64,000 bases of DNA from Sarcomyxa edulis. Taxonomy: Eukaryota > Basidiomycota > Agaricomycetes > Agaricales > Mycenaceae. Each line of letters opens with the position of its first letter. Within the stretch, counting starts at the first letter, position 1. Where the stretch lies: the NCBI GenBank assembly GCA_009761415.1, contig QUOL01000008.1:806001-870000 (forward strand). The letters run 5' to 3'. The notes under the pieces were generated by a model. That model saw nothing but the letters and a program-made list of their open reading frames with translations, searched no databases and was not told where the DNA came from. This document shows, piece after piece, positions 12,105 to 54,319 of the stretch. The translations under genes were made by a program, and so were the position numbers.

Positions 12105-13464
12105 ATGCATGTCCTTGGTCTCTCATTTTTGTTCTCGGTACTCCTTACATCTAGCTACGCGCTGAAATGGAAAGGTGCCGACTTTTCTAGCGTTGGGCTA
12201 CTCTCTACCCAATACCACGACGCCTCCACATCTTCATCGGTCCAACCCTTTGAGAAGATCCTAGCAGAACACGGCACGAACCTTGCGCGCATCAGGATTT
12301 GGACCAGCACGGATGATACCCAATACAGCTTGAAATACGGTCTTGCCATCGCGAAAAGGGCGGTGGCCGTTGGAATGTCGCTTCTGGTGGATTTGCATTA
12401 CAGTGATACGTGTATGACCATCTTTATCTTCCCTTGCGGACAATAAATCAATAATAAACTGACGACGCCTGAAGGGGCTGATCCTGGCCACCAGGCTATC
12501 CCTGCTGGTTGGCCTACAACTCTTGCTGGGCTGAACACTCAAATCTTCACGTGCGCAGCAATATTTCAGTGGCATTGAGCTTGAAGGTTCACGCTCATTT
12601 GATTCAACAGGTATACGGAAAGCATCGTTACTGCCTTTGCAAATCAAGGCACTCCAATTACTTACATCCAAGTTCGTTTTGCAATTTATTTTTCTGGCGT
12701 TGATACTCATTCTGTCAATCTCAACTTTCAGATTGGAAACGAAATCAAAGATGGAATGCTCTGGCCCGTGGGTCGAATCTCTGTGAACGGCTACTCTCCC
12801 CTGTCCCAATTATTGCATTCAGCCGTTAGCGGTGTTCGCACCGCTTCGTCAAGTGTCAAAACTGTGATACACCTACCAGATGGATGGGATACGGCCTCGC
12901 TGAATTCATTCTACAATAACATCTTCATTGCCGGCGAATTATCTACTGCCGACGTTGACCTCATGGGATTCTCGTTCTATCCGTTCTATGGTACTTCCGC
13001 GAAACTATCGGCTTTACAGACCAGTCTACAAGGGTTAGTGACCAAATTCGGCAAGGTAGGTTCAAACATTGCCTCTCTGCGTTCATCGCAGTGATCACTT
13101 AATGATCACCCATCCAGGACGTAATGGTCGTCGAAACTGACTGGCCTGCCGTCTGCTCCGGGGTATCACTCAGCGAATCATCCATCGCTGTCTCAGCAGC
13201 AGGCCAACAACAGTGGATACTCGATATTCGTAACGTCCTCTCGGGCATCTCCGGTGGCCATGGTCTAGGTATCGTGTACTGGGAGCCAGGATGGGTGGGC
13301 AATGCCAATTTGGGATCGCCTTGTGCGGTAAGCATCTTGCTCTGTTCGATCTTCGGGTGTCCATGCTGATGATCTTGGTGTGTGTGGGCTATCAGGACGC
13401 TTTGCTCGTGGATAGTTCCGGGAATACTCGTGCTTCGATTGCGATGTTCTCCGCGGATATGTGA
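12105..13464 (+). CDS. Secreted arabinogalactan endo-beta-1,4-galactanase (GH53)
   Basis: Glycoside hydrolase family 53 enzyme that cuts beta-1,4-galactan side chains of pectin outside the cell. A signal peptide (MHVLGLSFLFSVLLTSSYA) precedes LKWKGADFSSVGLL. The mature part has NLARIRIW, then DLHYSDTWADPG across intron 1, then PAGWP. A short exon encodes YTESIVTAFANQGTPITYIQ. The next starts IGNEIKDGMLWP, where the Glu of GNE is the acid/base catalyst in the family. DLMGFSFYPFYG follows, then VMVVETDWPAVC, whose Glu is the expected nucleophile. The end [24 protein letters not shown] and a stop at 13,462-13,464 give a full-length enzyme with a catalytic domain only. It points to a plant-matter-degrading lifestyle. 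Confidence 0.92.
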
Positions 13465-13755: not shown

Positions 13756-15158
13756 TCAAGCAAATCGGGGCTTGATGACCTCCTCCGCAAACTGCTTCAA
13801 GGTGGCAAATTTGACACCTAGAGCAACGAGACGAGGGTCGGGGACAGGCACATCTGGGTACAATCCGTACTCGCTCTGGAAATCGTACTAAGATGATTTG
13901 GAATCAGTGTGTGAGTTTGAGGCGCGCGTAAATAAGGGTTAACAACTTGCCATTTGATCGAGTTCTTCGAGGCCGGAAGTCGAGACAGTCTTGAAGGTGA
14001 CTGGTTTACCGAGAGCTAATGCAGAAACCGTCTAGTCAGGACGAGACCAAGGATGATCGCAGGAAGAATGGGTTACAAACCTTCTTCGAGTATCTTTGTG
14101 TATTGTGGGTAGGTGATTCTCTCGGTGACCACGGCAAAGACTTGGTCTAAGATCTCGGCTGGGCGAGTTTGGTAGTTCTTGAGAAGAGCGAGAACGGATG
14201 CACCGAGATCTTTCTCGACCCAAAGGATAGCTTGTGTGGACGTTGGGGAGTAACGAGGGACGGTAAAGTCGTAACCAGTCGAAGAGGCGGTGAGGTATCC
14301 GAAACTAGATGACAGTCAACACAAAGTACGGGCGTGCATATGTGGATGGCTTACGTGTAGGTATTCTCGGCAAACCATCCTAGAAGAGCATATGTTGACG
14401 TCGAATTCCGTAGAAATTTAGTACAAAGGTACTCACCAGTGTAGACAGTGGCATGGGGCAACCCAGAAGCTTTGAGATACTCTTGTACGATAGTCTTGTC
14501 TTCAGTAGTCGTGCAAACAGTCAGTTCAGGAGATCAAGACTAGCACGTGTCAATCACTGACTCTCGAAGTGATGTACGGCCGGATATTTCCCGTTAGAGA
14601 GGTTCTTTGAGCTCGGCAACGAACTGAAATAGGAAGGAGGAAGACGGTAAGTAGACATGAAGATCACGATTGATGAGCACAGCAGGCCGCACGCACCTCC
14701 AGATGAAGAATTTCACACCGACTTCCTTCGAGGCATCAATCAAATCTTTTCCCTGGTCGATCTCCCCGGTAACCTTGTCATTAGCAATGGTAGGATCGTA
14801 GTAGTTGGTGACCTAGTATATATAGTTTGAGTTGAGTTAGGAACCTCGACGAAAATCAGAAAATAACGAGTGTACTTACACCAAAGACACCCTCACTTCC
14901 GACGAGAGCTTGCTTTACAGATTCCTTATCCCATAGATCGCATTTCACGACCTCGGCACCACGCGCCTTGAGTTTCTTGGATGCCTCTGAGTCGGGGTTA
15001 CGCGTGGCAGCACGAGGAGTAAAGGTGCCGTCGGCGAGGAGAGCGTCTACGACGGAAGATCCTATGGATGGATGGGGTCAGCTATAGAGTTGAAGGTTCA
15101 AGACATGAGCTCTACCTTGAGTGCCAGTGGCTCCAAAAACGGTAACGATACGGGCCAT
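13756..15158 (-). CDS. NmrA-like NAD(P)-binding protein, copy 1
   Basis: Atypical short-chain dehydrogenase of the NmrA/isoflavone-reductase-like group. The Rossmann start MARIVTVFGATGTQG is followed by SSVVDALLADGTFTPRAATRNPDSEASKKL, then GAEVVKCDLWDKESVKQALVGSEGVFGVT. Later exons encode IDQGKDLIDASKEVGVKFFIW, a short SLPSSKNLSNGKYPAVHHFE exon, and VQEYLKASGLPHATVYTGWFAENTY. The end holds VEKDLGASVLALLKNY, ERITYPQYTKILEEALGKPVTF and PDPRLVALGVKFATLKQFAEEVIKPRF. The glycine-rich GATGxQG loop binds NAD(P). In the family, members act as redox sensors or reductases; the substrate is unknown. Eight or so introns are at the same places as in the three other copies in this window. It appears intact. 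Confidence 0.87.
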
Positions 15159-37202: not shown

Positions 37203-37328
37203 TCAGTATGACGAAGGATGCTCCAGGAGGGTCTGAAGACATCATATGAGTAGCGCAGAGAAGAAGTCAAATCAACTACGTACCCCGCCATCAATCAATA
37301 CGGTTTCTCCGTTCACAAACCAATTGGC
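37203..37328 (-). pseudogene. 3' part of an SDR gene cut off by the KDZ transposon
   Basis: Reads NWFVNGETVLIDGG, a normal intron, then TLLEHPSSY and stop at 37,203-37,205, exactly as in the intact SDR copies. It begins at the target duplication AATTGGC (37,322-37,328), directly beside the transposon end. Its missing 5' part is at 53,114-54,319. Confidence 0.87.
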
Positions 37329-37445
37329 CACTACATCCTGGGGGAGTGATATATCACATCCTCTAATAACAACCGGAGTGTGATGCATCCACCGCTCTGA
37401 TCACAGCACGATCTGATATATCACCTTACAGCTCCTGCTCCCTTA
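37329..37445 (+). repeat. Left terminal inverted repeat of the KDZ transposon
   Basis: About 115 bases. Palindromic decamers are at 37,347-37,356 (TGATATATCA), 37,381-37,390 (TGATGCATCC, one mismatch) and 37,414-37,423 (TGATATATCA), that is 18, 52 and 85 bases in from the end. The word after the third, CCTTACAGCTC, also matches the right end. Confidence 0.85.
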
Positions 37446-37696
37446 CAGAATTCAGTCTCCGCTTCAATCCTCCTTGCTCCAACGATCATAGCCCTCCTAT
37501 TCAGGATAGGTGCGCCCTTCAGATCTCGATTGGAGTCGGACACCGTTCCCTTCGACGTTGAGACCGTCTATCTCGCTGTCTGTGTTAATGTCCAAATTAA
37601 TACATTTTTTTAATATTTTTGAAGCTTTTTCCCGCGTAATTCTGAGTGAATTAACTTGATTTGCTAACAGTGTTACATTATACGGTACGGTGAGTA

Positions 37697-40600
37697 CTAC
37701 ACGGCCTCTACAGCATCCCTTCCACCTCCATTAAGACTGTCTGGAGGACCTGCGACGACCTCGCTCATGAGAGCTATTCTTGTGTCTCCATCGCGCACCA
37801 GGTCCTCCAAATCCTTCCACTGGAACTCGTAGCGTATCCGCAGGGACCTTCGAAGTGCTGCCTGTCGTTTTGCATAAGCACTCAGACCCTCGCTCTGCTG
37901 AGGACTTAGGGAAGGACGGTCTTCCCCGCGGGTTTCCCACAGCTTCTCTTGCCAGATAAAAAAGGCCGATATGCGGCGCATCTCCTCCTGCAGGAGGAGG
38001 ACTTCCTCAGACCACCGCTTGGCCCGCGCTCGCCCTCTACACCACTCTATACGAAGCGCTGTCAAACTGTGTCAGTACTTCAAGCTTGCAACAAAGAACG
38101 CGATGCGGAACGTACCATCGTTCATGCCAGGATCCTCTACCGCGTCTACCCCAACACCTGCGGTCGTCCATATCCATGACATGGTGCGTGTTCCCTCGCT
38201 ATCGTCGGCCAACCCAGTGGACATTCCCCGTACATCAGCGTCGGTGAGTATTTTCAAGCTCGTCTCCCAATGCCGCGGCTTCTCCAGTAGTCTCCCTAAT
38301 TTTTCCATCGCCGCTCGAGCCTGTCGGTACCTAACCGCGGAAGCTTGAATTTTGGAACTCATCTTCTGGATTGCCACATTGGACTTTGTGTTTTGTGCAA
38401 CTCCCCTGGAGAACCGGTCTTTGAAGTGATATTGGTAAGTACGCAGTCGGAGGTCTTGGCGCATGGAATGTAAGGCATCGTATGCCTGTCCTTCCCGCAA
38501 ACGAAACTCGTAGTCCAGAAAGCGACGATCGCATGGAACCTGGTCGCAAATTTGAGATGGCAGAAGAAGAGGGATATTATGGGTTGCAAACGGTGGCGTT
38601 CCTTCGGGTGCATTTCGTGCAGTAGCCTCGCGTAGTTGAGCGACACTAGGGACGTAGAGGGTTTGAAGCTCAATCCATGCTTCAATCTTCCGGCGAAGGC
38701 TGTTTGTCCGCTCTGCAACGAGTGTACGATCTCTCGAGGTGGAGTGTTCTCCTAATGCAGCTATATCAGTGGCAAGGCGGACTCTTCCAAGGAGACATTG
38801 TCAGCCTTTAGCATCACAGCGATTAGAGATTATACGCACTGCTGTTTCTCTAATTCAAGTCCGTTTGCAACCATAATCGTGGGATGCACGTCTCGATGAA
38901 TAGTCAGATGAGGCTCAGAGGCGACGCTCTCTGCGAGTGCTAGACGGACATCGTGTTGAGTCAAGGCTGTATCCTCATCAGTACTTGTGGCTTGATTGTC
39001 AACTTGTTATAACTCACTTTTGACCACTGTTTGGAAAGGATTCGGATTTGTATTGTCCTCCTCCCAGAGCTCAACAGCACAAGTCCATTGTTCGGTCATT
39101 GCCTTCGGTAGAGCTTGCTCAAATTCGTGGAAAGCCACTACAAGCTCTGTCCGCTTAGGAACAGCTACGTGCATCTTCTTCAGCATAACATTGCCTAATG
39201 ACGCGGTCAGTAAGATATTTTTCGAAGGAAATAAGGGACTCACCAAGCGCAATGATCTTCTTCCAATTCCAGTCATTGAAGTGGTCATCGAGGGTATCAC
39301 GTCTAGACCCTGGACCCATCTCCTTCGTGCTTCCAGCAAGCCGATTAGCGTCGGCCCATCCCCGCTCGGGTGCCTCACCATCCGTTCGCCCTACACCTTT
39401 GGTCAAGTTGAAGGAAAATGCGATGTTGCAGGCTTCGATGTGCGCGGGAAGATGGAACTTGGGGACCACAAAAACGATACAGGCCATGCCTGCGAGGACT
39501 TGCTTTGAGTGAGGAAATATAGACATACGTTCCCATATTTTCTTGCTCCACTGGCAAGCAATGTCATATGAGACGACTAGATTGCGAAGTTTTGTTCCCT
39601 CGAGACTGCTAAAGAACATGTAGTCCATGTTCAAGTATCTAGGCATAATGAGTTAATCCGATGTCCCCGGTAGAAACTCGAACAAAGCATACCGTTCCCC
39701 CTTCTGGAGATCGCCAACTCCAAGCGGTCTCTTCATGTTATGGCGTGCACAGTCAATTGTTCCAATGCCAGACGCCGCCGTGCCACGAGATTCACGGTCT
39801 GGTTTATTGACCGCATCGTGGGATACACAAGTACTTCGCTGCAATACAACCTCAGCACACCAATAGATACAAATAATTTGAATGTGCATACCTCTTGCTT
39901 TTGGTCCCAGTACAATGCTAGATGCCGCTTATACCCCGTTTCCTCGACAAAAAATGCCCACCCGTTACTCAACCCTGGGTCAACCCTGTCACTTGAGACC
40001 ATTTTGCGGAGCAAACGAAAGTTGGCGTCAATGGCCAGGAACAACGCGTAGAGCCATCTGGAGAAGATAAGTTAGTGACACACTGACATATATACAGGAG
40101 TACAATATCATCAGTACTCACTGTTTCTCCTTGTCGGCCTCCCAATCATCCGGCAGATTTTTGTCGGGGTGCGGACATACTGGACAAAGAACAGCGCATT
40201 CCCCGGGACTAGTGCCGTTAACGCCACCAGGATCATGTCCGCGACCAGCCCGTTTCAGCATCCTCAAATTTCTGAATTCTAGTACCATGCGTAGAAACTC
40301 GGCATATCGATCCTAGGATTCACCGTCAGCTCTACAGGTCTGGATAACCATGATGAACACGTACTCGAGCTGGCTTTGGGCTCGTGTTGTTTGTTTCCCG
40401 GGCTAAGCTTCGATAAAATTCATACGCGGAGCACTTGGATTCGAACGATAGAAGCTGGAATCGTTGTAATAGGCGAAAGGTGGCAGCGGTGTTCGGAAAT
40501 CGGTCAGTGGCAGGGAAAAGGCCATAACGGAGGAGCTGCGTCGCATGGTCCTTGCTACTTTGGCAATGACAAAAGTCCAAGCCAACCTCGTGGATTCCAT

Positions 40601-41424
40601 GGGTATCAACGATCACAAAATCGTCGAGCGCGGTGCGGTAAGGATTTGGACAGGGTCGTCCTGGAGGATGCCCGAGCTGTATGCGGAGTCCGAGATGTTT
40701 CAAGCTGGTGTTTTCGAAGAAATTGCCGTTCCATGCCTAAGACAGTCAATTAGTGACAGAGAAGCCTAGGATATTAAGGGCTTAACCTACCTGAATACGA
40801 TGCAGTGGATTGAATATGTGTAGAGAAATGGTGCATTTCTCACACCACAGATCGCCACCAAAACAGTCCCTACATCTGAATTCCGCAGGGACTTCCTCAC
40901 CACAATTCCGACAAGATGAATGACTTGCGTCACCTCGTCCCTCGAGCCATAGAATGCAGGCAAGATAGGCATCTCGTTCAGCGCGCCACATGAGGAGGGG
41001 ATTGTCCTACAACATTGCTGAACGGTCAGTCAAATCTCATACAAGGACAACAAGGTGTACTCACTGAAGCGACACGTTTACGACTGGGATCCAGAACCTG
41101 ATATAGCTCTTCATCTGCGGTGGCGTCGACGAACGGATCCGAAAAGCTATCCATGCGATGGTCAATGTCGTCGTGAAGTTGGTACGAATGGGAGAGCTGT
41201 TTTTCAGGAGATACAGGCATAGGAAAGTACGAAGTGCGGTAGGCAAATTGGCCGGTCAAGCTGTTGCTTTCAACCTGCATGTGCTGGTGGTTCACAATCG
41301 GTCGTTCTTCTTCGATTTCTTCGTCGGAGTCTGCAAAAGTTTCGCGTTGAACGTCAGGTACGAAAGGTCGATTTCTTCGACCACGCTGGGGGGCTGAGCG
41401 GCCACGACGCTTCCTGGTTTCCAT
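37697..41424 (-). CDS. KDZ (Kyakuja-Dileera-Zisupton) transposase with CxC2 zinc cluster
   Basis: Starts METRKRRGRSAPQRGRRNRP, an Arg-rich tail, then an acidic stretch. The CxC2 zinc cluster follows an intron: SSCRNCGEEVPAEFRC, then RDCFGGDLWCEKC, HIFNPLHRIQ (paired Cys and His). The transposase part has GLRIQLGHPPGRPCPNPY, FVIVDTHGIHEVGLDFCHC, DRYAEFLRMVLEFRNLRMLK and GIGTIDCARHNMKRPLGVGD. Its core is NMDYMFFSSL, LVVSYDIACQWSKKIWERM, FVVPKFHLPAHIEAC and FSFNLTKGVGRTDGEAPER, followed by TKEMGPGSRRDTLDDHFNDW. These are hallmark KDZ motifs, with acidic residues expected in the RNase H-fold active site. The C-terminal third is helical and Arg-rich and ends at 37,697. About 12 introns. No frame break was seen in the core, so it may still be active. 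Confidence 0.9.
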
Positions 41425-41781
41425 GTTGTAGAAGGCTAGCAGCAAGGATAGGAAAGGTTTTGGGAGTGGAGGGGGGGGGGTCCATGTTGAGGCGCCACTT
41501 TCACCGTTCAATCAACAATCGTGAATCCAATACTGGGTCAAGATTGTAGCGATTATCGATAAACCTTCATGTGGGCCGTGAAAGCAAGATCTGAAGCGCG
41601 TGCGGCGCGCGTCTATTGTACTTCCGTATTGCTATATGCCGAAGTCATGTGATGATCGCGTACACAGATTCCTTGCACCCTTATGCGTTACTCTTCAGTC
41701 TGAGGGCGTGATACGGCACGGAAACGGCATCGATTCCTTATACCCGCCACTCAAACAAAATTACAGTGTTTGAAATACATG

Positions 41782-44209
41782 CTAAGTACCAGAAACTTTG
41801 AATATTTTTTTGCGATCGGACACAAGCTCATCGATTTTGGATATCAAAGCAAGGGAACGCTCCCATCTTCCACCGCCCATCTCATCGAATTTCCGTTTTC
41901 TCTCCTTACCACCCTGTTCTGACAAAAGAGACTTAGCAGATTTGAACCCATAATCAACCCACCGAAACAGTCCTCCAGCGCAATACTGTGTCACAGAGCA
42001 CCGCATCTCACCAGGCTGAAGTGCGGTATTACCATGATGAACAGTGGCTGAAGGGAGCAGGATCGTCGAACCCGACGGGAATTCGATCATGAGCTTGAGC
42101 TCGAACAGAATTAGATACGCACTAGTCGCGGAATTGAAACGGCCGAGGGAAGTGATAGCGCAGAAGCCGCCCGCGAGGTTGCCGGTGTCAAGGTGACAGC
42201 GGGCAACAGTGAACGGTCCACAATTGAAGGAGACAGCGGGAAATATGCTATTGGCGAAGATGTGACAGAGGTTGAAGACCCCAGTCCACAACGCACGGAG
42301 GTGCTGGGCCATCGACTGGTACGACAAAGGTTGATATTCCGCAAAGGCACCTGCAGGAGAACGGTGAGACAAGAAGCAGATACGAGAAGGTAGATACATA
42401 CAGCTCTGAAAGCCCGCAATGCGCTTCATGCATGGGTGTTGGAGCAATTGATCGAGCAGCTTCTGGTGAGCTTTGCTCTGTACCAAGTTGCCCGGGATCT
42501 ACAATCGTGTCAGCAGATAGACGAAGAAAGAAATATTGACGACAGACCCTTTGCCCTCCACCATAAGAGACACCCGTAGCTAACGCAACAAACTCCCCGC
42601 GACGATGATCGAAGGCATCCGGCTTCATCGTTTTGCGAGCCTCGTTGCCAATTTCAATCATGTCGAGGAATCCATTGTCGATCATGCCATCCCAATCGGG
42701 ATCGTCTGGATGGCCCACGCAAACGGTGATCAGGCGGCGCTGAGAGTCGATTATACCGATTGGCTTACTGGAGAGACTTAAATTAGTGAACTAAAGAAGA
42801 AGCAAGAGAAAACGAGCTTACAAGCCGTTCCAAGGAATAAACTTGAAGCCCTTTTTGTCCAGCTCTTCCCGTGTCCATACATGATCATCGTTGGTACCTG
42901 GAGCATCGCGTTTACCGGTATAACCAGGGGCGCTATGCGGGAGCGTCTCCACATCGATAGAGGCGGCAACAGAGTCCAGCTTGGGTCGAGCGGTACCTCG
43001 ACGAGGGTCAGGTTGATAGTTGTAGATATGAAAATCGGAGGTGGCGGCCTCCACGCGATCTCGTTTTCGACGTTGTTTAGAGCTAGCCTTGGAACGAGCT
43101 GCCTCAGTATCAGAGCGACGTCGGATAAGGTGCGGGGGAACAGGGTTAACGGATGGGGCAATGTGAGGGATAATATGATGGTTGTTGATTGGGCATGATT
43201 GCAAAGAGTCCTTTCGAAGTTTGGGCGCACGTCCGCCAGTACTCATGTGGGCGTATGAAGAAGCACGCTTGCGACGTTTCGAGTTGGTAGGTGATAGGAC
43301 TGGGAGAGCTGACGGAACTAGGGGGGATGATAGAATTGGGGAAGGGAGAGGCTCAGATGTAACTTCGAGGCCATCAGCGTCCTCTCCATTGCAGTCGAGC
43401 TTCCAGGTTTCCGCCTGAACAGAATTCCGGAAGATGGTTGTGATATCGAGAGATGCGGGTACCGGAGCAGGGACAATACTGCAGGCTAATCGGACAAGCG
43501 AGCCGAGATTGTATGGACCGAATGAACATCTGGCGCGGGTGCGGCTCGACGGTCCAAGGGAGTCCTATGTAAGATGTCAGTCTCGACAATATGCACAAGA
43601 AGTGGTGCGGTAGGGAGACGTACGGAGAGGGAATGAGACATTGGGGCGTTCTTTACAGCCTGATATAAACATGGAGGTGTCAGCCGTGCAGTATTTGATG
43701 ACTTCAGAAAGCTTACCTTATGAAAGACGAAGCGGGCAGAAGGCTGCAAAGAACGATCAAGTGCTAAGGAAAAGGAAAAGAATTCAGGACAAGTACTTCA
43801 GAGAATAGAAGAACACTTACGACATGAACCCTGTAGAAAGTCAGGAACGCGCCTGTAGAAAAAGAACAAGAGCATAATAAGCATGGGATATAAAAAAGGA
43901 GCCACGAGTCCGTACACTGGTCGCGTGCATGCGGTAAAGCTCTGCGTACCAGTGTACGGACAAGACCAGAAACAGTCACTTACGGAGTTGAGTGCGGATG
44001 TCGATGTTAGACCTGAAAGAACAATAAAAAACGTGCATTAGCATAGTGTAAGGCAAGACGAGAAGAAATTAAACCACGACGACGCCAGTTGACTCCACAA
44101 CCAAGGTATCAGCATGCCTGAAGAGATATCCCCAGTGGTAGTCGGTTCTCTGCACGTAGATTAGAACCACCGAGGTGGAACGGTAATTGGCAGTGAGGTT
44201 GACTCGCCA
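41782..44209 (-). CDS. TET/JBP-like 2-oxoglutarate/Fe(II) dioxygenase (2OG-FeII_Oxy_6 type); 5' end unresolved
   Basis: Fungal dioxygenase of the TET/JBP group, whose studied members oxidise 5-methylcytosine in DNA. The core reads GHPDDPDWDGMIDNGFLDMI, RRGEFVALATGVSYGGGQR, VPGNLVQSKAHQKLLDQLL and AFAEYQPLSYQSMAQHLRAL. The iron-binding H-x-D is in ARCHLDTGNLAGGFCAITSL. ELKLMIEFPSGSTILLPSAT leads to the distal iron His (VHHGN) and a likely 2-oxoglutarate-binding Arg in GEMRCSVTQYCAGGLFRWVD. All key residues are present. Upstream exons splice well through AVKNAPMSHSLS, PSARFVFHK, AFLTFYRVHV, SNIDIRTQL and TDYHWGYLFRHADTLV; the true start may lie further up (44.2-44.9 kb). It is transcribed in the same direction as the transposase, about 360 bases upstream of it. 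Confidence 0.83.
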
Positions 44210-46976
44210 CTAGGTAGCACGACAGACAAGCAGAACATGGCTGCAGAAGCGCATGGACATCGACGACGATGAAAAAAACCCTTGTCCCACCCTCGCAACT
44301 CGTCGCGTGCCTCTGGTAAGGCTCAGCGTACAGACGCGTGGGGGGACTGAGGGGAAAAAACTGAAATCAAGAGGAATGGGACATACCAAGGTGGGGAGAG
44401 GATGGCAAGAGGTTAGGAGTTCGGACAGACGATTGCGGAATGATATGGCATCGGAGACAGAAGGAGTGGAAGCGGAGACGGATGACACCGGGCAAATCGA
44501 TATCCAATGAGTATCGCATGGACGTGGAGCTCTCGCTGGCTCACGACGGCTGGAGCATCGATAACCATCCGAAAGTCTACGGGCTGACTTTACCCTCACT
44601 GACAATTGGGTGATGCGTCATATCAAATAGGTGTATTTCAAGTCGCTGAACAGACCTTGTGCTACTTCGCATAATATGTACCCCCACCTCGCAGTCTACC
44701 GCTCTTCTCCACTCCTGTACTTGTTTGTCGTGATGCGGTGGTGTCCCGGACGGCTTTCCTCGTTTCCTTGGCGTGGAATGTGGCCAACGGACAACGATGG
44801 ATGGGCTGAAGCTGGCATTGTCAGGTAATATACAAAGCTGATGAACGGAACGACGTACCTAGTTGTCGCGTAGATCCTTGATGCAAGGGTGTGCGCCACA
44901 AATCTTTGAGAAAGCTGGATGATACGTACAATATCCCGATTTCAGAATCCCGCACAATGCAATGCTGGGACTTCCTCGAAGCTTCGAGATGATCGTACGT
45001 CTTGGTGCGCTAGCGGAATGCGGGTTGTAGATGTGCATGGCAAGCGTTCGAGATGAGACCTGTCGAGGAAGGAATCAGTACCGTACCCCCAATAGATGGA
45101 GAGAGAAGATACATTAACACACCAACATTGATTAGGATTGATTCCAAGGGAGTTTCCGAGTTGTTTCTCCTGTGAATACATGAGCGAGCGTGGTGTAGCA
45201 AAAAAATCAGGAACGTACCATTGCCCCGAGCATCATCATTTACTTTGAGATCAAGACAAGAGAGAGGGACTTTGAATTCGAGAAATAAGAAAAAGATTGA
45301 TGGACTGCCACCCGCAATGGGGGGTCGCGGGTGGCAGTAGAAGTTCACCGCTGCAGCCGTCGACGACGGTGACTCGGAATCGGGATTTGGAAGCAGTGGT
45401 CTCACCACGTGACTACTTCACGCGACGCGACAGCACTGAATGTTCGCGATATCTACATATTACTTGTGATTCTTGCGCGTCCGAGATCTCAAAAGTGGTA
45501 TTCTGTTGAGTTGTGTATTCCGAGAGTTTGCTATTCGGTTACTGACTTGTTTGCATTCTCTGATGTCTCACAGTAGTGCGTCCCAGTGCCTACAACGTGG
45601 AACCGCCCAACATCCGTGGAATGCCCCGCCATGAAGTATTTGCGTCGACTCGAATAACTCTCCAATTCAGTCAAAACTGATTGACGTATGCATGACTCCC
45701 ATCACTCAGATCGTGCGTCAAAGTTGTTGACTCGGATTTGGCTATCAATCTCCGCAATATTAGTGTGGCAGGAGATGCTCGCTCGTATTGTTGCATCTGT
45801 ATTGGTATCATTCAGCTTAGATATATGTAACTACGTACCTACACGAATCGCTGTAGATTCCAACGTAACAAACCATGGTCCCCAAGCTACTTACTCAATG
45901 TTCGCGATATCAACTTTGCAAGAACTGCTCGTTGACGGTGTCGCATCCATGATGCCTCAGTAGGTCCAGCTATATGTAACGACTTACTTACACCAATCCT
46001 TGCAGATCTCGAGGGGGCAAGCACACTCCCCAGGCTACTTGAACAATGTTCGCGATATTGGCCTCGCGAAAGATGATCAGTCGCGTTATTGAGATGGTAT
46101 TGCAATCAAGTGGTGGCTGTATATGTATTGGATCAGATTGCATGAAATTGGATCATGAGAGTACTCGGTAGTTGTCCTACTCTCTGTACAAGTCGAACAT
46201 ACACCTGTTTGGTAAGTTGAGTCGCGGCGATCACTGTCGATCACTGGCAATCACTTGGACTCACCAACATTTTCATCCGCATTTCGGGATAACTGAGCAC
46301 CCTCTCGATGCTCCTGTTGCAAACCTGCTTAGACTGAATGATTTGTGAGTGCATCTTTGAGGCTTACCACTTTCGGACTAAACCACAATTTGGTGAAACT
46401 GTTCACAGTGACACTCGAGTTCGAGGTTTGTGTTTTCTCCCAGGTAAGCTGTCAGCACAACTCTTCATCTTATCGGGCTTCGACAGTTATTAACATTAGC
46501 TTTGATACATCATGTGCATACAACAAGTGGTTATGCTCTACGAACTCTTGCCAATACTTCAGTTCGCTGCAGCAGTACACCGCTAGTGTGTTCGCGATAT
46601 CAGAGCAGTACGCAGTATGTTCTGCACCCCGTTCGGTGATAGTTTCGTAAGTACGTCTTTGCATACCGAAGACTACTTCCCAAATGCTCAGGCGGAGCAG
46701 ATCATATCAATCCCTTCATAACCACGAGATGAATTATGTTCGCGATATTTGTCTGGTGCGTGCAAATAACATCTCAACTATGGGAACCGTATGCGAAAGA
46801 ACACACTTCTGCTGATATTCAACTCATATCTCAATAACAATGCCCTCTAGGTTTGGTTTTGTAGTTTCCATAGCCATGACAAGTGTCCAGGAGGACATCG
46901 GAAACCGGGTAACACGAGACCCAGACGCAAAAACCAATGCGACCACTGCAAGTCTTATTCTCATTCTCACCACACG
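44210..46976. other. 2.8 kb intergenic zone inside the KDZ transposon
   Basis: Lies between the dioxygenase (minus) and the basic-motif gene (plus). The left part, to about 44,900, may hold further first exons of the dioxygenase (for example a frame with SASTPSVSDAISFRNRLSEL at about 44,420-44,480). The right part holds the 11-base repeats listed separately. No independent gene was recognised. Confidence 0.45.
45442..46748 (+). repeat. Five copies of GTTCGCGATAT in a divergent promoter region
   Basis: Exact 11-base copies at 45,442, 45,900, 46,048, 46,590 and 46,738 (starts). The second and third sit in a longer diverged unit of about 148 bases, with shared words such as TATATGTAAC and CTACTT..CAATGTTCGCGATAT. 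Each core contains the palindrome TCGCGA with two CpG sites. Confidence 0.75.
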
Positions 46977-48248
46977 ATGCGTTCTCCGGCTGAGAAAAAA
47001 GAAGCTCACCGCATTGCATGTGCAAAGTATAATGCAAAGTAAGTCTTAAGAACGCCCTTGCAGACGCATCTGTATGACGCTGAGTCTTGTATAGAAATCA
47101 CGAAGTGTTGAAAGAACAAGCAAGAATCAGAATGGCAAAGTACACTGGTTGCCTTGTGACTTCATACTCTATCTTATACACTTTTTCAGGTCTAGAAAGC
47201 AAAAGAAAGAGACTTCGGAGCGAGCAAGACAGCCACCAAAGTCTCTCAAAAAACCTACAGCTTCCAAACCCAGACGAAGATCTCGAACATTGCGCAAGTC
47301 TGAACCACTTCCATCTGGACCGCCCTCGGTGCTATCCACTCCTATTCACCAGATACCTCCCAAGTTTCGCAAGTCCGAGTCGCGACCCTCCCTTACTGGC
47401 ACACAAAGTAACGAACTGCCCCACTGTCCCGATATCTACAGCTCCTCCGAGTCGATCCACGAACAGACATCGCTTGCCCAACTCGTTCAATCAAACAAAT
47501 CCGTCCGTTCACCATCCGCGGTGTCTTGGACCACCGATGATTATCTGAATTATTTCAAAACTTCGACTCCTGAGAGGTAAGTACACTCTAACCTCTCAAA
47601 TATGGATCAGATATCTCACACAGGATATTTGACAGGGATCATACATCTACTAGTGTTCGAGGTTCAACGTCAGACCCGGATGAGTTCTTGAGTCTCTACG
47701 ACGACGATTACCCTTCGTATGTACTCCTCCATGGCCTCGCCACATCAGAATTGACTGAAGACATGTTCAGAACCGTTAGCACTCCTCCACCTCTAGACTT
47801 GCGGGCCATAGCAAAGTACGTCCTTCAGACCCTAGACAGAAGGCCATACTTAGACATGTACTTACACAGAAAACATTTTCCGTGGGTTGTTGACCAAACA
47901 CCCCCTCGGAAAGAGCCTCCGAGGTGTTTAATCTGGTGTCTTAAGCTGATAGGGCACCTTACTGATATTCGTCTTAGACAAAGACATGATTCACCGTACC
48001 AACACCCCTCCTCCAAGGAACTCGATGACGGGGGCTATGACAGCAGTGTGTCTGACTCTTTTGCTCATCCAAGATTTGCCCCAGAATTCGCCAACCTCGA
48101 CCGTTTCGTTCTCGATGACCATCTACTCGTGCCTGCGGACAGCAACGCGAGCAACACCGACATAGATCTCCAGGACGAGGCACTCAATCTGTCTGATGAT
48201 CCGGATTTCGAATTTCGAAAGGAGTGGGAGCTTCGCTACGGATTGTAA
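46977..48248 (+). CDS. Uncharacterised protein with N-terminal basic (KEQARxRMAKYR-type) segment
   Basis: I do not recognise a named domain. Exon 1 reads MRSPAEKKEAHRIACAKYNA, exon 2 NHEVLKEQARIRMAKY, exon 3 RKQKKETSERARQPPKSLKK. Together these form a Lys/Arg/Ala-rich helix like the basic leader repeated in many basidiomycete transposon-linked proteins. The middle is Ser/Pro rich and probably disordered. The last exon (from about 47,637) has SLYDDDYPSYVLLHGLATSE, then DLRAIAKYVLQTLDRRPYLD and RCLIWCLKLIGHLTDIRLRQ, and an acidic tail ending EWELRYGL. Stop at 48,246-48,248. DNA binding by the basic part is only an inference. It lies within the KDZ transposon and is likely cargo. Confidence 0.68.
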
Positions 48249-48487
48249 AATAAAGGCACTTTCGTTGATTATCTAGATACTTGTTTGCAATTTATTTGAC
48301 TTAAGGAGCATCTATAAGTATCTTATATTTCAGCAGATCGAATGATTATTTGTGCGTATTTGAACTTGGGGATAACACCCTCATTGACGCCCTTCTGGGA
48401 TATCACCTTGGGACTCGGAACGAGGGAAGGCATCCAAGGGACTGGCTGATTCAAATCCCACATGATACAAGACTGTCAGACCGTAAA

Positions 48488-49766
48488 CTAGGCTATGTAC
48501 TGGATTCCGTTATTGTACCACGCCCTCGCGTATGCATCGAGGGCTTCCCCGAGCGATGCATGCTTTTTGTAAATCGCACACGAGACACGAGTCACGAGTG
48601 GTGAAACCTCATCCCTTGATCGAATGTTAGCAATCAAGTCTATCTTTGAAAAAATGGACGCACCAGTGTCCATATATCCCAGGAGCTTTACCTGCCGAGA
48701 CAACGTACCATTTCCCATCCGGCGAGGTGAGCGTCTGTACGAGATCGACCATTTCGCCAGGGTCTATCAAACGAGGACGACGACGTGGAAGAGCAAAGAC
48801 TGAGTTAGAGGGACCTGCAGAAGCATTGGCAACAGGAACAGAGGGATTGTTGATGGGGGCCGGAATATTCCCAATAGAAGTTGAACCTGCCGACACATGA
48901 GAAAACTTTCATCACAATGACAAATGGATAATCAATATGAAATAGCTAACCTTGGGAAGCTATGTTACCAAGAACGAACCCGGAATCTTCCGCTGAGACG
49001 GCCAGAGCAGCTGTGATACATCAGATCCCTGTGGCAAAGTATACGATCAAAGATACTCACGGATAGGAGAACCAACGAGTGTCGCAGAAGATGAAGCAGG
49101 AGTTGTGCCATTATCGACGTCTATGATCTAGTATCAGTAACCAGGTATGGACAGTCCAAAAGATGAACTCACCCGCGTCAAGAGTAACCGCAGCTGCAGT
49201 AGAGGAGTCGATGGCATCAACGGTCTGAGCAGGGGAAGTAGCAGGTATGGTAGAAGCAGCGACAACATCGAACTCAAGGGGGCGCGTAATGGCAGACCCA
49301 ATGGCTCCAGAGGAGCTGGGCCTGACGGTGGGTGCCATGACACGTCCGACTGCAGACACAAGGGTATGTTCAATGACAGGCACAACGACCGGTTCGGCGA
49401 CAATCGTGACGGTGGACTGGACGGCGGGCTCGACGTCGGGTATACCAGCCCGAAGCTGAGGCGATTCTGTTGTTGGAGCAGGAAGTTCAACAACAGGTGC
49501 AGTAGCTGACTGGAGTAACTCACCGACTCTAATGGGAGGCTGCGCCGTGGATTCGACGGGACAATCATCGATGACATCCTTTCCAAGTTCTGTGGCCAAT
49601 GAGTCAGAACACGGTGTTATCCATATAGAGAGAACTTACGGCGGGGAGCCAACCTTTCTAAGATCGCAGACTGAGTCAGAGCAATCTGCGAAAGAGCCAG
49701 TGCAATGGCGGCCAACGAGGATGCGTTGGACACATCATCGTTGCGCGCAGTTGCTTTGAGCTCCAT
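48488..49766 (-). CDS. Protein with RNase H1 N-terminal (viroplasmin-like) domain
   Basis: The N-terminus MELKATARNDDVSNASSLAA (helical) leads into a long, low-complexity Thr/Val/Ala/Pro stretch (about 49,150-49,590). After further exons comes PRRRPRLIDPGEMVDLVQTL. The domain follows: GKWYVVSAGKAPGIYGHW, an intron, then the second half VSCAIYKKHASLGEALDAYA. This matches the small hybrid-binding domain at the start of eukaryotic RNase H1 (Y-V-V...G..P-G-I-Y..W...Y..H..L..A). No RNase H catalytic domain is present. Such stand-alone domains are common in agaricomycete mobile DNA. RNA:DNA or dsRNA binding is inferred from the family. Start at 49,764-49,766; stop at 48,488-48,490. Confidence 0.72.
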
Positions 49767-50051
49767 GGAAGGCAGACAAACAGGGGGAAATGGTAGATCA
49801 ACCTGACGAAAAGATCAGAGAAGTGTGGTATAAATATCCGAGTCGGAGCGGGCCCCGAACTGCTCGGATGCAATACGGAACCTCAACTTACATTCCGTCC
49901 GTCGATCATCGATCTTCAGAATCTACGCGAGATCACAGCCGTTCATCCTTGGTTCAGCCGCTCAGAGCTCAGTAATACATCACTGCTAGTTCTGAGCTCG
50001 ATGATATATTACAGCTGTTGCTGCAATGTCTGTGATTTTTTTCCGACTCCT

Positions 50052-52555
50052 ATGGCCCCAGGTCGTTGGCAAACTGATGAACAATTCGACTTCCTTAATG
50101 CCAATATCAATGCTTTTCTCACTGCTTCTGCTACTTCTCGGTTTCCAAAGTTCTGGCCTGATCTCACCGAGCGCTGGTTCCTCAACTGGCCTGAGGCTCA
50201 AGCCCAGATCACACTCCATAATCTTCCCGTGGATTTTGTTGAGACCGTCCCTGACGAAGAGGACTCAGAGGCTACTATTGCCAATCGGGCCATTCTAAAG
50301 AAGGCTGTTGAGTCTAGACAGAGCGTATGTAGACCATCAATATTTCTTGAGAGTCTTCTAATTGTTTTCTATCTATGCAGCAACTCAAGGCGTGGTTTCG
50401 AAACCATGCCAAGAAAAAGTCGAAGCCCTTGAACGCGACCCGCCTTGCCACTGTCCTTCTTAACAGAGCAAAACCCACTCGCCGTCATCAGAAGACAGAG
50501 ATATACGAAACTCAATACTCCGAAAAAGTTCAAGAGGCCGTGAAAGTCGCGTATGACGCCGAGCGTGCGGCTGCACATGATGAAGAAGAGAAGAAGAAAG
50601 TAATTTGGCTGACAGTCAGGCGCAAGGTGGTGAAGGACCTGTGGGACAATGAGACGGCAGCTGTAAAGGACGAAATCGACGGTCTTTGGAAGGCACAGGG
50701 CGAAGGTACTGAGGGCGAAGGGAGTCATGAGAGTCCCGAAGTCAGGACTCCAGAGCAGTATCAAGAGTGAGTCTGTCTCCCTCTTGCACCACTTGATCAC
50801 ACATTGACTGAGGCTCGTTATGCGTTCAGAGCAATTGACAATCTCCCAGTGGCTTTGCATACTCTAGGAAGAGAGCTACGGCACCTAACGGACTACTCGT
50901 TGACCATCTTCTGTGGTGGACCAAACCCTAGGGCTGGAGGGCAGATAGAAGTCATCAGGTATGATTGATACTTTTTGTTTCGACTATTCAGCGTCAACTC
51001 AAGTCCTGTAGTGTTCATATTGGCGAAACTCCCCTCGGAAACAGCTTTGCGACGGCTTATGATATGAAAAATGGCATTATAGCACCATATGCAGAATGGC
51101 TAAAGCGCGTTTATCGTGAGTCATAGCCGATGAATCGATTTCGATTTCTCTCTAACATTTGGCACAGCGCTTTCTGTTCGGAAAGCACGAGCTCTAATAC
51201 CTGCCAACGCAGATGAGGCTGCGGCCAACGTCGAGTCCTCTGACATTCCCCACACAATATTCAGTAGTAGAAACGATGGGTTACTCGGTGAACCATTGCC
51301 TGCTGGAGCACCAAATCTTCCGGACATATCTGATCCAAACTTGATCAGAATGGCACCCGGGTCACCGCCATTGCCAGAAGCGCCGGATAAAGTGAAGAAG
51401 ACGAAGAAAAAGAAATCGAAAACTGTGATGCCCGTTGCCCCATCTGCATCTCCTGCCACTGGATTATCTACACCCGGCTCGGAGTTGACTTTGGGTTCCA
51501 CTGCCACCTCTGAACGCACTTCTCCCCCTGATTCCCAATCTGCTGTGTCTTCAATCTCTGAAGCTCCGGCTCCCCAGATTCCCTCAGCTCCTCAAACGAC
51601 TGCTACCCAAACAACTTCTGCCCCCCAAACGACTGAAGTCCCCAGGTTAGACACTGCGAGTTTTGCAGCTCTACTTTCAATGCCCACTGCAGATCTCATG
51701 CAGTTTGGGTTTGACTTTGGACCGGTAACTCCACATGCATTGCCCCATCTGCCCTTGTTTGATTTTGGAGGTTTACGTTCGCCAGTGGGCCAGTCCCCCG
51801 CTGATGACTTGGATTCGCCGTTGCGACCACGTGCAGAGCCAGGCCCTCTCTTTCAAACACCGCCAAACACGCAGATTCAAGACCCGTGGAGCTTCCCATC
51901 ACCAACTATCCAGACACGCAATGGAGTTCCGACTGCTGCGCCTCTCGAAGGCCTCTTCTATGCTCCCCATGCTCCCCATGCTCCCCCTTTCTCACCTACC
52001 GCGGCCGCTACACCTGTGTCTCCTCCAGCGCCATCTCCAACACCTCTCGCATCAGCACTCGCCCTCGCAAAACCACCTACCGCGGCCGCTACACCTGTGT
52101 CTCCTCCAGCGTCATCTCCAACGCCTCTCGCATCAGCACTCCCCCTCGCAAAACCCAAACGAGGAAGAAAAAAACAGATAACGACGCCCGTTACTTCCTC
52201 GGAAGCTCAGCCTCCGGCACAACCACGACCACGACCTCGACGAGTACAGCCAATAAAACCTACTCAGCCCGTTCCACCCGATACGCCGCCTCCATCTTCT
52301 CCCACCTTCAGCCGTAAAATTCCTCCCCTCAACCGAGGTCCTGCTACTTCCAACGAGGGCCCATCTGTGAAGAAAAAGCCAGGCTGGAAAGGGTGGGCGT
52401 TGGTACCTATAGATGAACTTGAGACCAATGGCGAAGCAGCGTGCACTTCGTCTTCTTCTGAGGTGATAACAGGCCGACGCGTACCGAAGAGGCCTCGGGC
52501 TGCCGATGGTACATCTGCATATGCGCCGACAGCGCAGAAAAAGAGAGTCAGTTAA
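50052..52555 (+). CDS. Uncharacterised fungal protein with Trp-rich N-terminal region and Pro-rich tail
   Basis: Belongs by eye to a large set of unnamed agaricomycete proteins. The N-terminus MAPGRWQTDEQFDFLNANIN, RFPKFWPDLTERWFLNWPE is followed by KAVESRQSQLKAWFRNHAKK and a long charged helical exon (YETQYSEKVQEAVKVAYDAE). Next come VALHTLGRELRHLTDYSLTI, FCGGPNPRAGGQIEVI and then HIGETPLGNSFATAYD, ending the ordered part near 51,118. The last exon (about 51,170-52,555) is a Pro/Ser/Thr-rich tail of some 460 residues with Lys-rich patches (KKTKKKKSK), compatible with nuclear targeting. An 81-base tandem repeat lies in the tail. Function unknown. It is the last gene before the right end of the KDZ transposon. 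Confidence 0.72.
51997..52158 (+). repeat. Two tandem 81-base units inside the Pro-rich tail
   Basis: Each encodes 27 residues of the form PTAAATPVSPPAxSPTPLAS and ALxLAKP. Each contains GCGGCCGC (52,001 and 52,082). The two copies differ at a handful of bases, so the duplication is recent. Confidence 0.85.
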
Positions 52556-52996
52556 TGGCCACAAGTAGTCGTAGAAATTAGAGTAGGTAAACACTAGAAT
52601 AAATCTGTCCATGCGTTATATTGAAAAAAATCACGCCGCTGTATCCTTGTCAAAAAATTGTTTTGAATGTCTATATGTAGACACTGAACATAGTACGATA
52701 AGATTGAATGTAAATGAATATATTTGTTCACGGCCAATCGAACACGCAGCGACTACACTGGTACTTAGACAGTTTTTCATTTTTCATTTTTCATTTTTCA
52801 TTTTTCATTATTATTCCTTATTTCTCAACTAAGGTGCTGCCAACTGGCGGAGGGCGGGCGGGAAGCGCAGAATGCCGCCATCGACGATTGTCGATCGTTC
52901 ATTCCTATTGCGGAAGCGGTGCGCCTGAAGTACCCTCAAGCCGAAGGATGCCGGGAATTAGAATGCTGCCGAGGATGCCGCCGATCCCAAGCCGTA
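52556..52996. other. Non-coding tail of the KDZ transposon
   Basis: AT-rich, without recognised genes. It includes five perfect tandem copies of a TTTTTCA heptamer at about 52,772-52,808. Confidence 0.55.
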
Positions 52997-53113
52997 TATT
53001 CAAGCAGAGCTCTAAGGTGATGTATCACGGTCTACTGCTACCACAGCTCCCGATGCATCACTCGTATTCTGTACTTAGAGGGATGTGATACATCAGAAGT
53101 ACAGTATAGACTG
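52997..53113 (-). repeat. Right terminal inverted repeat of the KDZ transposon
   Basis: Inverted partner of the left end. Decamers are at 53,086-53,095 (TGATACATCA), 53,051-53,060 (CGATGCATCA) and 53,018-53,027 (TGATGTATCA), at 18, 53 and 86 bases in from the end. Confidence 0.85.
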
Positions 53114-54319
53114 AATTGGCGACTAAGAACAGTGCTAAAGTGCCCATGTCGCGCTGCGTACCACCGGTCGTCACAGTAGGAACGATTACGCCGCCCCAAT
53201 CAGTGCCCTCGGGTACATCCGCCATCCCAGAGTCGTTGGTTTGACCAGGAAGAGCCATCTGAAGAGCAGTGATCACCGATCAATGTAAGTGATATCCGGG
53301 TGAGATTGCATGGCTTACTTCAGTTGGGAATACGCCTACAAGGTAAGAAGCTCAAGTATTCGGAAAATCATGCTGCATTGGACATGTCACTTACCCGGGG
53401 CAATGCCATTGACTCTTATACCGAGAGGTAATAATTCGTGCGCAAGGGAGGATGTAGCGTGTCCTAGTGCGCTTTTAGAAAACATATATGGATACGAACG
53501 GGCGCTTGTGGTGGAGTCCTGCATGGCAAGCAAGCATCAATGACCACAATGAAAATGCGACGAAGCTGATATTACCTTTGTCCATCCGTTCATACTGCTC
53601 GTCATGATGATCTGAGGCACAAATTTCTTAGTCGCAGGTTCGCTGGATTTTTTCCAGTTCTCGAGTAAAGGAAGGAATGCGAAAGTAAGCCAGTAAGGCC
53701 CGACAGCGTTGGTATTCAAGACATTGTTAAAGTCTTCCTGCGCGATCTCATCGAAGAGGCTGGTGACATACGCAGCCGCGGTTGGCGAAGCAGGAGTCTT
53801 GAAAGAACCTGCTATAATACCGGCATTGTTGAAAAGAACAGTGACATATTTTTCGCGTTTGCCTATTTCTTCAGCAAGACGCCTAGCTTCTGCCTCAATT
53901 GAACGGTTATGTAAGAGCAGTCCATGGCACAGGAACGGCAACACACCTTTTTGCTGATGTCTCCTGGAACACCATAGATAACTCCCCGTCCCGGGATCTT
54001 CTCGACAGGCTCATTGTATAACTTAGTGACCCTAGACATGTGCAATAAACATCTGGGATTGAATTACGGGAGTATGCGGTACTTCTCCAGTCTGGCCTGA
54101 TTGATGTCTATAATGTAGACAGTCGCTCCGTTTGCAATCAAGGTCAAGCTTATGGCTAAACCAATTCCCTGCAAGGAAAGTAGAAGTCGATTAGACACGA
54201 TCAAGACTTCGGTATAGATACGGCAGACTCACACTGCTGCCACCAGTGACAACGGCTACGACACCGCGGAGGTCAAATATGTTATTTGCGCTGAGTCCTT
54301 CCAGTATATTGCCTGCCAT
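53114..54319 (-). pseudogene. 5' part of an SDR gene, separated from its 3' end by the KDZ transposon
   Basis: Starts M-A-G-N-I-L-E, then NIFDLRGVVAVVTGGSS (NAD(P) glycine motif, continued by GIGLAISLTLIANGATVYII across an intron). VTVLFNNAGIIAGSF holds the NNAG motif, and IIMTSSMNGWTK and SYPYMFSKSALG the catalytic Ser and Tyr-x-x-x-Lys. The final exon (GGTQRDMGTLALFLVAN) runs into the transposon at 53,113, so the encoded end is replaced by element sequence stopping near 53,058. The missing NWFVNGE... end lies 15.8 kb away at 37,203-37,328. Otherwise no frame break is seen, which indicates a recent event. A truncated or fusion protein may still be made. Confidence 0.87.

Follow-up and report, generated by a model that had tools for sequence, protein, structure and literature searches.

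The TET+ Kyakuja transposons of Agaricomycetes (Kyakuja-1_LB, Kyakuja-2_LB and others; Kojima 2025) are DNA transposons of the KDZ superfamily with 7-bp target-site duplications (TSDs) and CA..TG tips, and the Kyakuja families of L. bicolor are stated to be without terminal inverted repeats (TIRs) (PMC12730594). Zisupton and Dileera make 8-bp TSDs (PMC12730594). A TIR motif was reported for the KDZ/Plavaka elements of Marasmius oreades (PMC8290104), and the classification of the giant Starship elements rests on a tyrosine recombinase (PMC12134995). Here we describe a 15,785 bp element, named W, in a stretch of 64,000 nucleotides from Sarcomyxa edulis (C39:806001-870000 of a 35.6 Mb genome in 40 contigs). 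This whole stretch is called the window, and window positions are used for W.

W carries a KDZ transposase together with a TET/JBP-type dioxygenase, is flanked by a 7-bp TSD and ends in CA..TG, which it has in common with TET+ Kyakuja, as it does the Agaricomycete hosts. The genera of its protein relatives are, judged by their names, presumably Agaricomycetes. Like the Starships W is a large fungal DNA element with several genes, but instead of a tyrosine recombinase it has a transposase of the KDZ type, and its borders are formed by a TSD and TIRs. Zisupton and Dileera share the KDZ-type transposase and differ in their 8-bp TSDs, in contrast to 7 bp in five copies of W's family. W is very probably a TET+ Kyakuja transposon that is autonomous or was so until recently. 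Five bounded copies in one genome provide a clean anatomy of a poorly characterised transposon group: where its tips lie exactly, which sites are paired at its ends, which five genes recur, and what the target looks like when empty.

Borders and copies of the element

The features at the two ends of W are as follows.

37272..37328, minus strand: 3' end of the interrupted host short-chain dehydrogenase/reductase (SDR) gene (...NWFVNGETVLIDGGVRS)
37322..37328, plus strand: left copy of the 7-bp TSD AATTGGC, sequence read
37329..53113, no strand assigned: transposon body W, 15,785 bp with CA...TG tips, which align with those of four other copies
37329..37433, plus strand: left imperfect TIR, about 105 bp
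37347..37356, no strand assigned: outer left palindrome TGATATATCA at +19, putative transposase site
37414..37423, no strand assigned: inner left palindrome TGATATATCA at +86
53009..53113, minus strand: right imperfect TIR, about 105 bp
53018..53027, no strand assigned: inner right palindrome TGATGTATCA at +87 from the right tip
53086..53095, no strand assigned: outer right palindrome TGATACATCA at +19 from the right tip
53114..53120, plus strand: right copy of the 7-bp TSD AATTGGC, sequence read
53114..54319, minus strand: 5' part of the interrupted host SDR gene

As stated in the initial annotation, AATTGGC is found directly outside both tips, and its two copies are perfect. With 10 occurrences of the heptamer or its complement in the window, the sequence is weak evidence when taken alone, and it is the exact placement at the tips that counts. 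W inserted into the last coding stretch of an SDR gene and disrupted it. When the flanks are joined with a single copy of the duplication the reading frame is restored as ...LALFLVANWFVNGETVLIDGGVRS, and the joined protein matches adh_short (1.1e-34) and adh_short_C2 (1.8e-27). The latter match covers residues 29-301 of 303 and thus spans the join, which agrees with the earlier claim that the frame resumes across the ends. An empty-site comparison, made at the protein level and with other species, was based on 2753 significant relatives out of 7998 scored candidates; 119 of the best 120 of these 2753 show no insertion or deletion in the 24 columns across the site.

Further copies could be identified in the genome. 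The KDZ domain was matched 93 times across the whole genome, in some cases with identical scores. One identical-score pair, C4:573587 (copy A) and C39:1616960 (copy B), has a common block of 99.8% identity over 7,479 bases, which starts at the same base as the left tip of W. The inner 15-mer TAAGGTGATRYATCA has 8 matches in the genome and none in the reversed control, and three new sites of this motif led to copies C23 and C40 and to the right tip of A. The right-tip motif TACAGTATAGMCTG had 5 matches in the genome and 1 in the reversed control, and so did the left-tip motif when up to 3 mismatches were allowed. All ten tip matches, five left and five right, pair up as the copies W, A, B, C23 and C40, the opposite of ends that do not occur together elsewhere.

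C39:1614969-1629816: copy B, 14,848 bp, TGTCAAG on both sides; its right tip aligns with that of W
C23:2363468-2379179: copy C23, 15,712 bp, duplication CAATAGT
C40:65316-79851: copy C40, 14,536 bp, duplication GTATGTT
Left tip as in W, right tip at C4:620,082: copy A, duplication GTGACGT on both sides

A 7-bp duplication and CA..TG termini are present in all five copies, and the four fully read ones (W, B, C23 and C40) range in size from 14.5 to 15.8 kb. Because the borders of A, B, C23 and C40 were set by tip homology, their duplications are an independent test of the borders of W, and each of the four has one. The proposal that the whole block moved as one unit is supported by the pairing of the same tips at four further sites, every one of which is flanked by a 7-bp duplication of a different sequence. 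Copy A is not an element truncated at 7,479 bp, as its right tip, at C4:620,082, is flanked by the GTGACGT that also flanks the left one. Its halves are separated by an insert of about 33.7 kb (C4:579075-612742). The insert has short inverted tips (TGTGA...TCACA), a 4-bp GCGT duplication and a further KDZ transposase domain inside, and possibly represents another large element that lies nested within copy A.

The tips of W had been described as imperfect inverted repeats, and indeed the left tip CACTACATCCTGGG... aligns imperfectly over about 105 bases with the complement of the right tip CAGTCTATACTGTA... The local alignment score is 81 for W, 56 for B, 73 for C23 and 74 for C40, thus for all four copies tested, in comparison to maxima of 35-40 in 1000 shuffles per copy and of 36-45 among 946-957 internal pairs per copy (at most 45 in 957 for W; pairs starting less than 300 bases apart were excluded). 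A separate set of 500 shuffled pairs did not exceed 41 for W. All shuffles behind these scores are mononucleotide shuffles. In a cruder control of 500 random window pairs, which allowed overlapping pairs, the maximum was 168, and the origin of that score was not traced. Borders arising by chance are ruled out by the inverted-repeat score controls, the reversed control of the inner motif and the paired tip matches across the genome.

A 10-bp palindrome of the form TRATRYATCA is located at +19 and at +86 to +88 of each tip in W, B, C23 and C40, that is at 16 of 16 expected places if one mismatch is allowed in one C23 site, TAATACAACA. The proportion of changed silent sites (pS) between W and the other copies is near saturation (0.62-0.83), and palindromes kept despite this point to a function. 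They are putative transposase binding sites and offer a direct test of transposase binding. Some copies have additional end-type palindromes in their right part, again in clusters: B at element positions 13824 and 13914, and C23 at positions 13229, 13305 and 13395 of the fetched stretch. Just inside the right end of W there is also a short 7-base tandem repeat of the TTTTTCA type (window 52773-52809).

From the observed borders, duplications and conserved end sites we infer binding and chemistry as follows. The transposase, with its CxC2 region and KDZ catalytic domain, would probably recognise the 10-bp palindromes that lie in pairs, near +19 and near +87, at both ends and is likely to cut at the CA/TG tips, so that W would move by cut-and-paste transposition. 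A 7-bp staggered cut at insertion would give the 7-bp duplication. The dioxygenase would probably oxidise 5-methylcytosine (5mC) on the element's own chromatin and thereby counter silencing, and the protein with the RNase H1 N-terminal domain as well as the products of genes 3 and 5 may serve as element-borne accessory factors.

Gene set

Five conserved gene regions were revealed in the four copies when W was compared with B, C23 and C40 at the level of translated sequence, which is the number of genes given in the initial annotation.

37727..41466, minus strand: gene 1, KDZ transposase, multi-exon, PF18758 and PF18803, with the CxC2 domain in exon 40335-40736 and the KDZ domain at 39266-39841; conserved blocks in B, C23 and C40; start and stop codons unsettled
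41782..43564, minus strand: gene 2, TET-type 2-oxoglutarate (2OG)-Fe(II) dioxygenase, four exons (43564-42822, 42767-42548, 42498-42402, 42350-41782) with GT..AG introns, from the GT..AG model and homologs; start codon unsettled
46977..48245, plus strand: gene 3, small basic protein; 3' part uncertain
48488..49766, minus strand: gene 4, protein with an RNase H1 N-terminal (Cauli_VI) domain at its C-terminus, from conserved blocks; middle exons unsettled
50052..52555, plus strand: gene 5, basic/proline-rich protein; one intron junction uncertain

The recurrence of the same five regions in all four fully read copies of 14.5-15.8 kb suggests that the genes belong to the element itself and are not captured host cargo, so that the earlier term cargo-carrying is overstated.

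The KDZ domain of gene 1 (PF18758) is matched on one exon with 1.8e-41 and 142.7 bits (cut-off 26.6), and the CxC2 domain (PF18803, 2.2e-43) is located upstream of it. CxC2 likewise precedes KDZ in intact transposons of Pleurotus ostreatus (PMC7641404). An in-frame GT..AG option exists at all nine junctions between ten blocks of gene 1, a test from which the conserved block 39016-39204 was excluded, and no stop codon is present in any of nine blocks compared with each of B, C23 and C40. The initial annotation named the link between KDZ transposases and TET/JBP dioxygenases as known. PF18758 and PF18803 together with a TET-type dioxygenase fit the published TET+ Kyakuja (PMC12730594).

In gene 3 only the start is kept among the copies (about 46977-47039 and 47084-47179), where MRSPAEKKEAHRIACAKYNAK is followed by RNHEVLKEQARIRMAKY, and the remainder evolves fast. 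Copy C40 (L050, L051) has a gene 3 without start codon and a dioxygenase without the metal-binding Asp, yet its transposase blocks are open.

The spliced C-terminus of gene 4 matches PF01693 with 1.7e-11. The genome search with the RNase H1 N-terminal family gave 5 matches, none of them at gene 4, which was probably missed because an intron splits the domain. For gene 5 three database relatives were found. Its N-terminus is related to the best one, a Mycena metata protein named 'homeobox domain-containing', whose own homeodomain match is under the Pfam cut-off. The comparison of gene 5 between W and B shows 2 stops in aligned blocks. In comparison to the described TET+ Kyakuja W has further genes, and one of them encodes the protein with the RNase H1 N-terminal domain. 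In the main text of PMC12730594 there is no mention of RNase, ribonuclease or homeobox, but its supplements may already record some of the features in which W departs from the described elements. A literature search combining RNase H1, KDZ and mushroom transposons gave no match with the term RNase H1.

The dioxygenase and its linkage to KDZ transposases

The fold of a gene 2 homolog matches CcTET of Coprinopsis cinerea (PDB 8jkk, 7w5p, 7vpn), NgTET1 and TET2. Across the fold about 15% of the residues are identical to CcTET, and there is no match at the sequence level. Among solved structures none was found with the gene 2 protein sequence at E<=1 or with a profile at E<=10. The window protein has no match to PF12851, which is matched by 5 of 26 aligned members at E<=0.01. 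The iron triad HxD...H and the 2OG-binding Arg are kept (H406, D408, H459 and R470 in the window protein). In the alignment of 68 of the 79 homologs these positions are occupied by H in 68, D in 67, H in 68 and R in 65 sequences, one homolog having HxN for HxD; among the 11 homologs outside this alignment is P0077, which has no HxD stretch in alignment A1.

Kojima distinguishes AG-type TETs with Gly or Ser and Asp at positions equivalent to CcTET 331 and 337, a PE type with HxE, and a PU type (PMC12730594). The gene 2 class carries neither the Asp at 337 with Gly/Ser at 331 nor an HxE motif. Counted by distance to HxD, and not by residue-level superposition, Asn replaces Gly331 and Cys replaces Asp337 of CcTET, and this Asn/Cys pair is found in all 68 aligned homologs and in W, B and C23; C40 has kept the Asn and has Ser at the second position. 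In this respect the dioxygenase of W differs from the AG-type TETs of Kyakuja. The pattern suggests another TET class with TET2-like recognition of 5mC. We tentatively propose, as a possibility somewhat short of even, that gene 2 represents a further, undescribed transposon-borne TET class of Agaricomycetes, which would be distinct from AG and PE, would act on 5mC and not on 6-methyladenine (6mA) through an invariant Asn as in human TET2, and would be borne by Kyakuja elements of a lineage that has inverted ends with paired palindromes and an accessory protein with an RNase H1 N-terminal domain. The residue pattern sharply predicts 5mC and not 6mA as the substrate, which is at variance with the suggestions made so far for TETs on Kyakuja elements.

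The gene 2 class is present at 24 loci of the genome (25 matches, two adjacent ones merged). At 18 of these a KDZ domain is located within 5 kb, the other six being without KDZ match in that range. Thirteen of the linked loci show the arrangement of W, with the dioxygenase upstream of the transposase in the same direction, and five are divergent with a spacing of about 3.0-3.2 kb. These divergent pairs (C10:410343, C16:48298, C38:346755, C3:1084773 and C21:93402) form a second architecture. Six weak genome matches to Tet_JBP (PF12851; L022-L027) were not recovered by the gene 2 search, and for one of them, L022, no solved structure was found by sequence at E<=1. The C5 cytosine methyltransferase family has 5 matches in three regions of the genome.

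Assignment and alternatives

The assignment to Kyakuja is a probable one, based on the KDZ domain, the 7-bp TSD and the CA..TG tips. Several observations weigh against reading W as a TET+ Kyakuja that is or recently was autonomous. Unlike the Kyakuja families of L. bicolor, W has imperfect TIRs of about 105 bp with paired palindromes; the lack of TIRs is here treated as a property of those families and not of the Kyakuja lineage. It speaks in favour of this reading that between W and the other copies the proportion of changed amino-acid-altering sites (pN) is below silent change, and far below it for the transposase and the catalytic part of the dioxygenase, with 0.18-0.20 (pS 0.78-0.83) for the transposase, 0.27-0.33 (pS 0.73-0.78) for the catalytic part of the dioxygenase, 0.43-0.48 for its N-terminus, 0.23-0.29 for gene 4 and 0.35-0.38 for gene 5, but these pN values lean low because the compared blocks were chosen by similarity. 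Two of three blocks of gene 4 were found in C23, and three of four blocks of gene 5 in C23 and in C40. CpG depletion is not seen: the observed/expected ratio is 0.92-0.95 for the four elements W, B, C23 and C40, compared with 0.95 for the flanks of W within the window. These ratios give no sign of a methylation scar on the elements, and they neither support nor exclude an anti-silencing role. Finally, three stretches of W searched as DNA revealed no near-identical second copy in the genome, so that recent mobility is deduced only from the perfect duplication and the intact SDR frame.

The lack of a near-identical copy of these three stretches would also fit W being a dead, stranded copy with real borders, which has lost movement and whose genes are relics. 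The awkward intron junction of gene 5 and the losses in C40 point in the same direction. In W itself, however, the transposase blocks are open with usable splice sites, the catalytic residues of the dioxygenase are present, and ends and duplication are perfect, which makes a dead copy improbable. Somewhat more room is left for a dioxygenase that serves a purpose other than self-demethylation, for example host-wide base oxidation or the modification of a base other than 5mC. Such a role would be in line with the low identity to CcTET and with oxidised methylcytosines being found on retrotransposons as well in C. cinerea and L. bicolor (PMC12730594). We regard it as rather unlikely, as the HxD, the distal His and the Arg are retained and the KDZ linkage at 18 of 24 loci suggests a role for the element.

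The initial annotation had suggested an original 8-base duplication with one change, and W would then be a KDZ element of the 8-bp kind such as Zisupton or Dileera (PMC12730594), in which one base has since mutated. An eighth base does match in B (tip-G side, right copy) and in C23 (tip-C side, left copy), but that is 2 of 10 places and about what chance would give. With the CA/TG tips fixed there are seven matching bases in all five copies, and on either side the eighth base mismatches in four of the five. An 8-bp duplication would need changes in four copies and would break the CA/TG tips; it is hardly credible, and the reading of W as a TET+ Kyakuja with a 7-bp TSD is preferred.

Other KDZ families of this genome look more recently active than that of W. 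By a hand count from the domain matches there are 48 KDZ loci, and loci with identical scores are probably recent copies. Examples of such same-score groups are C34:674864/C40:718574/C40:1080910 and C12:625419/C12:645522/C36:1090159.

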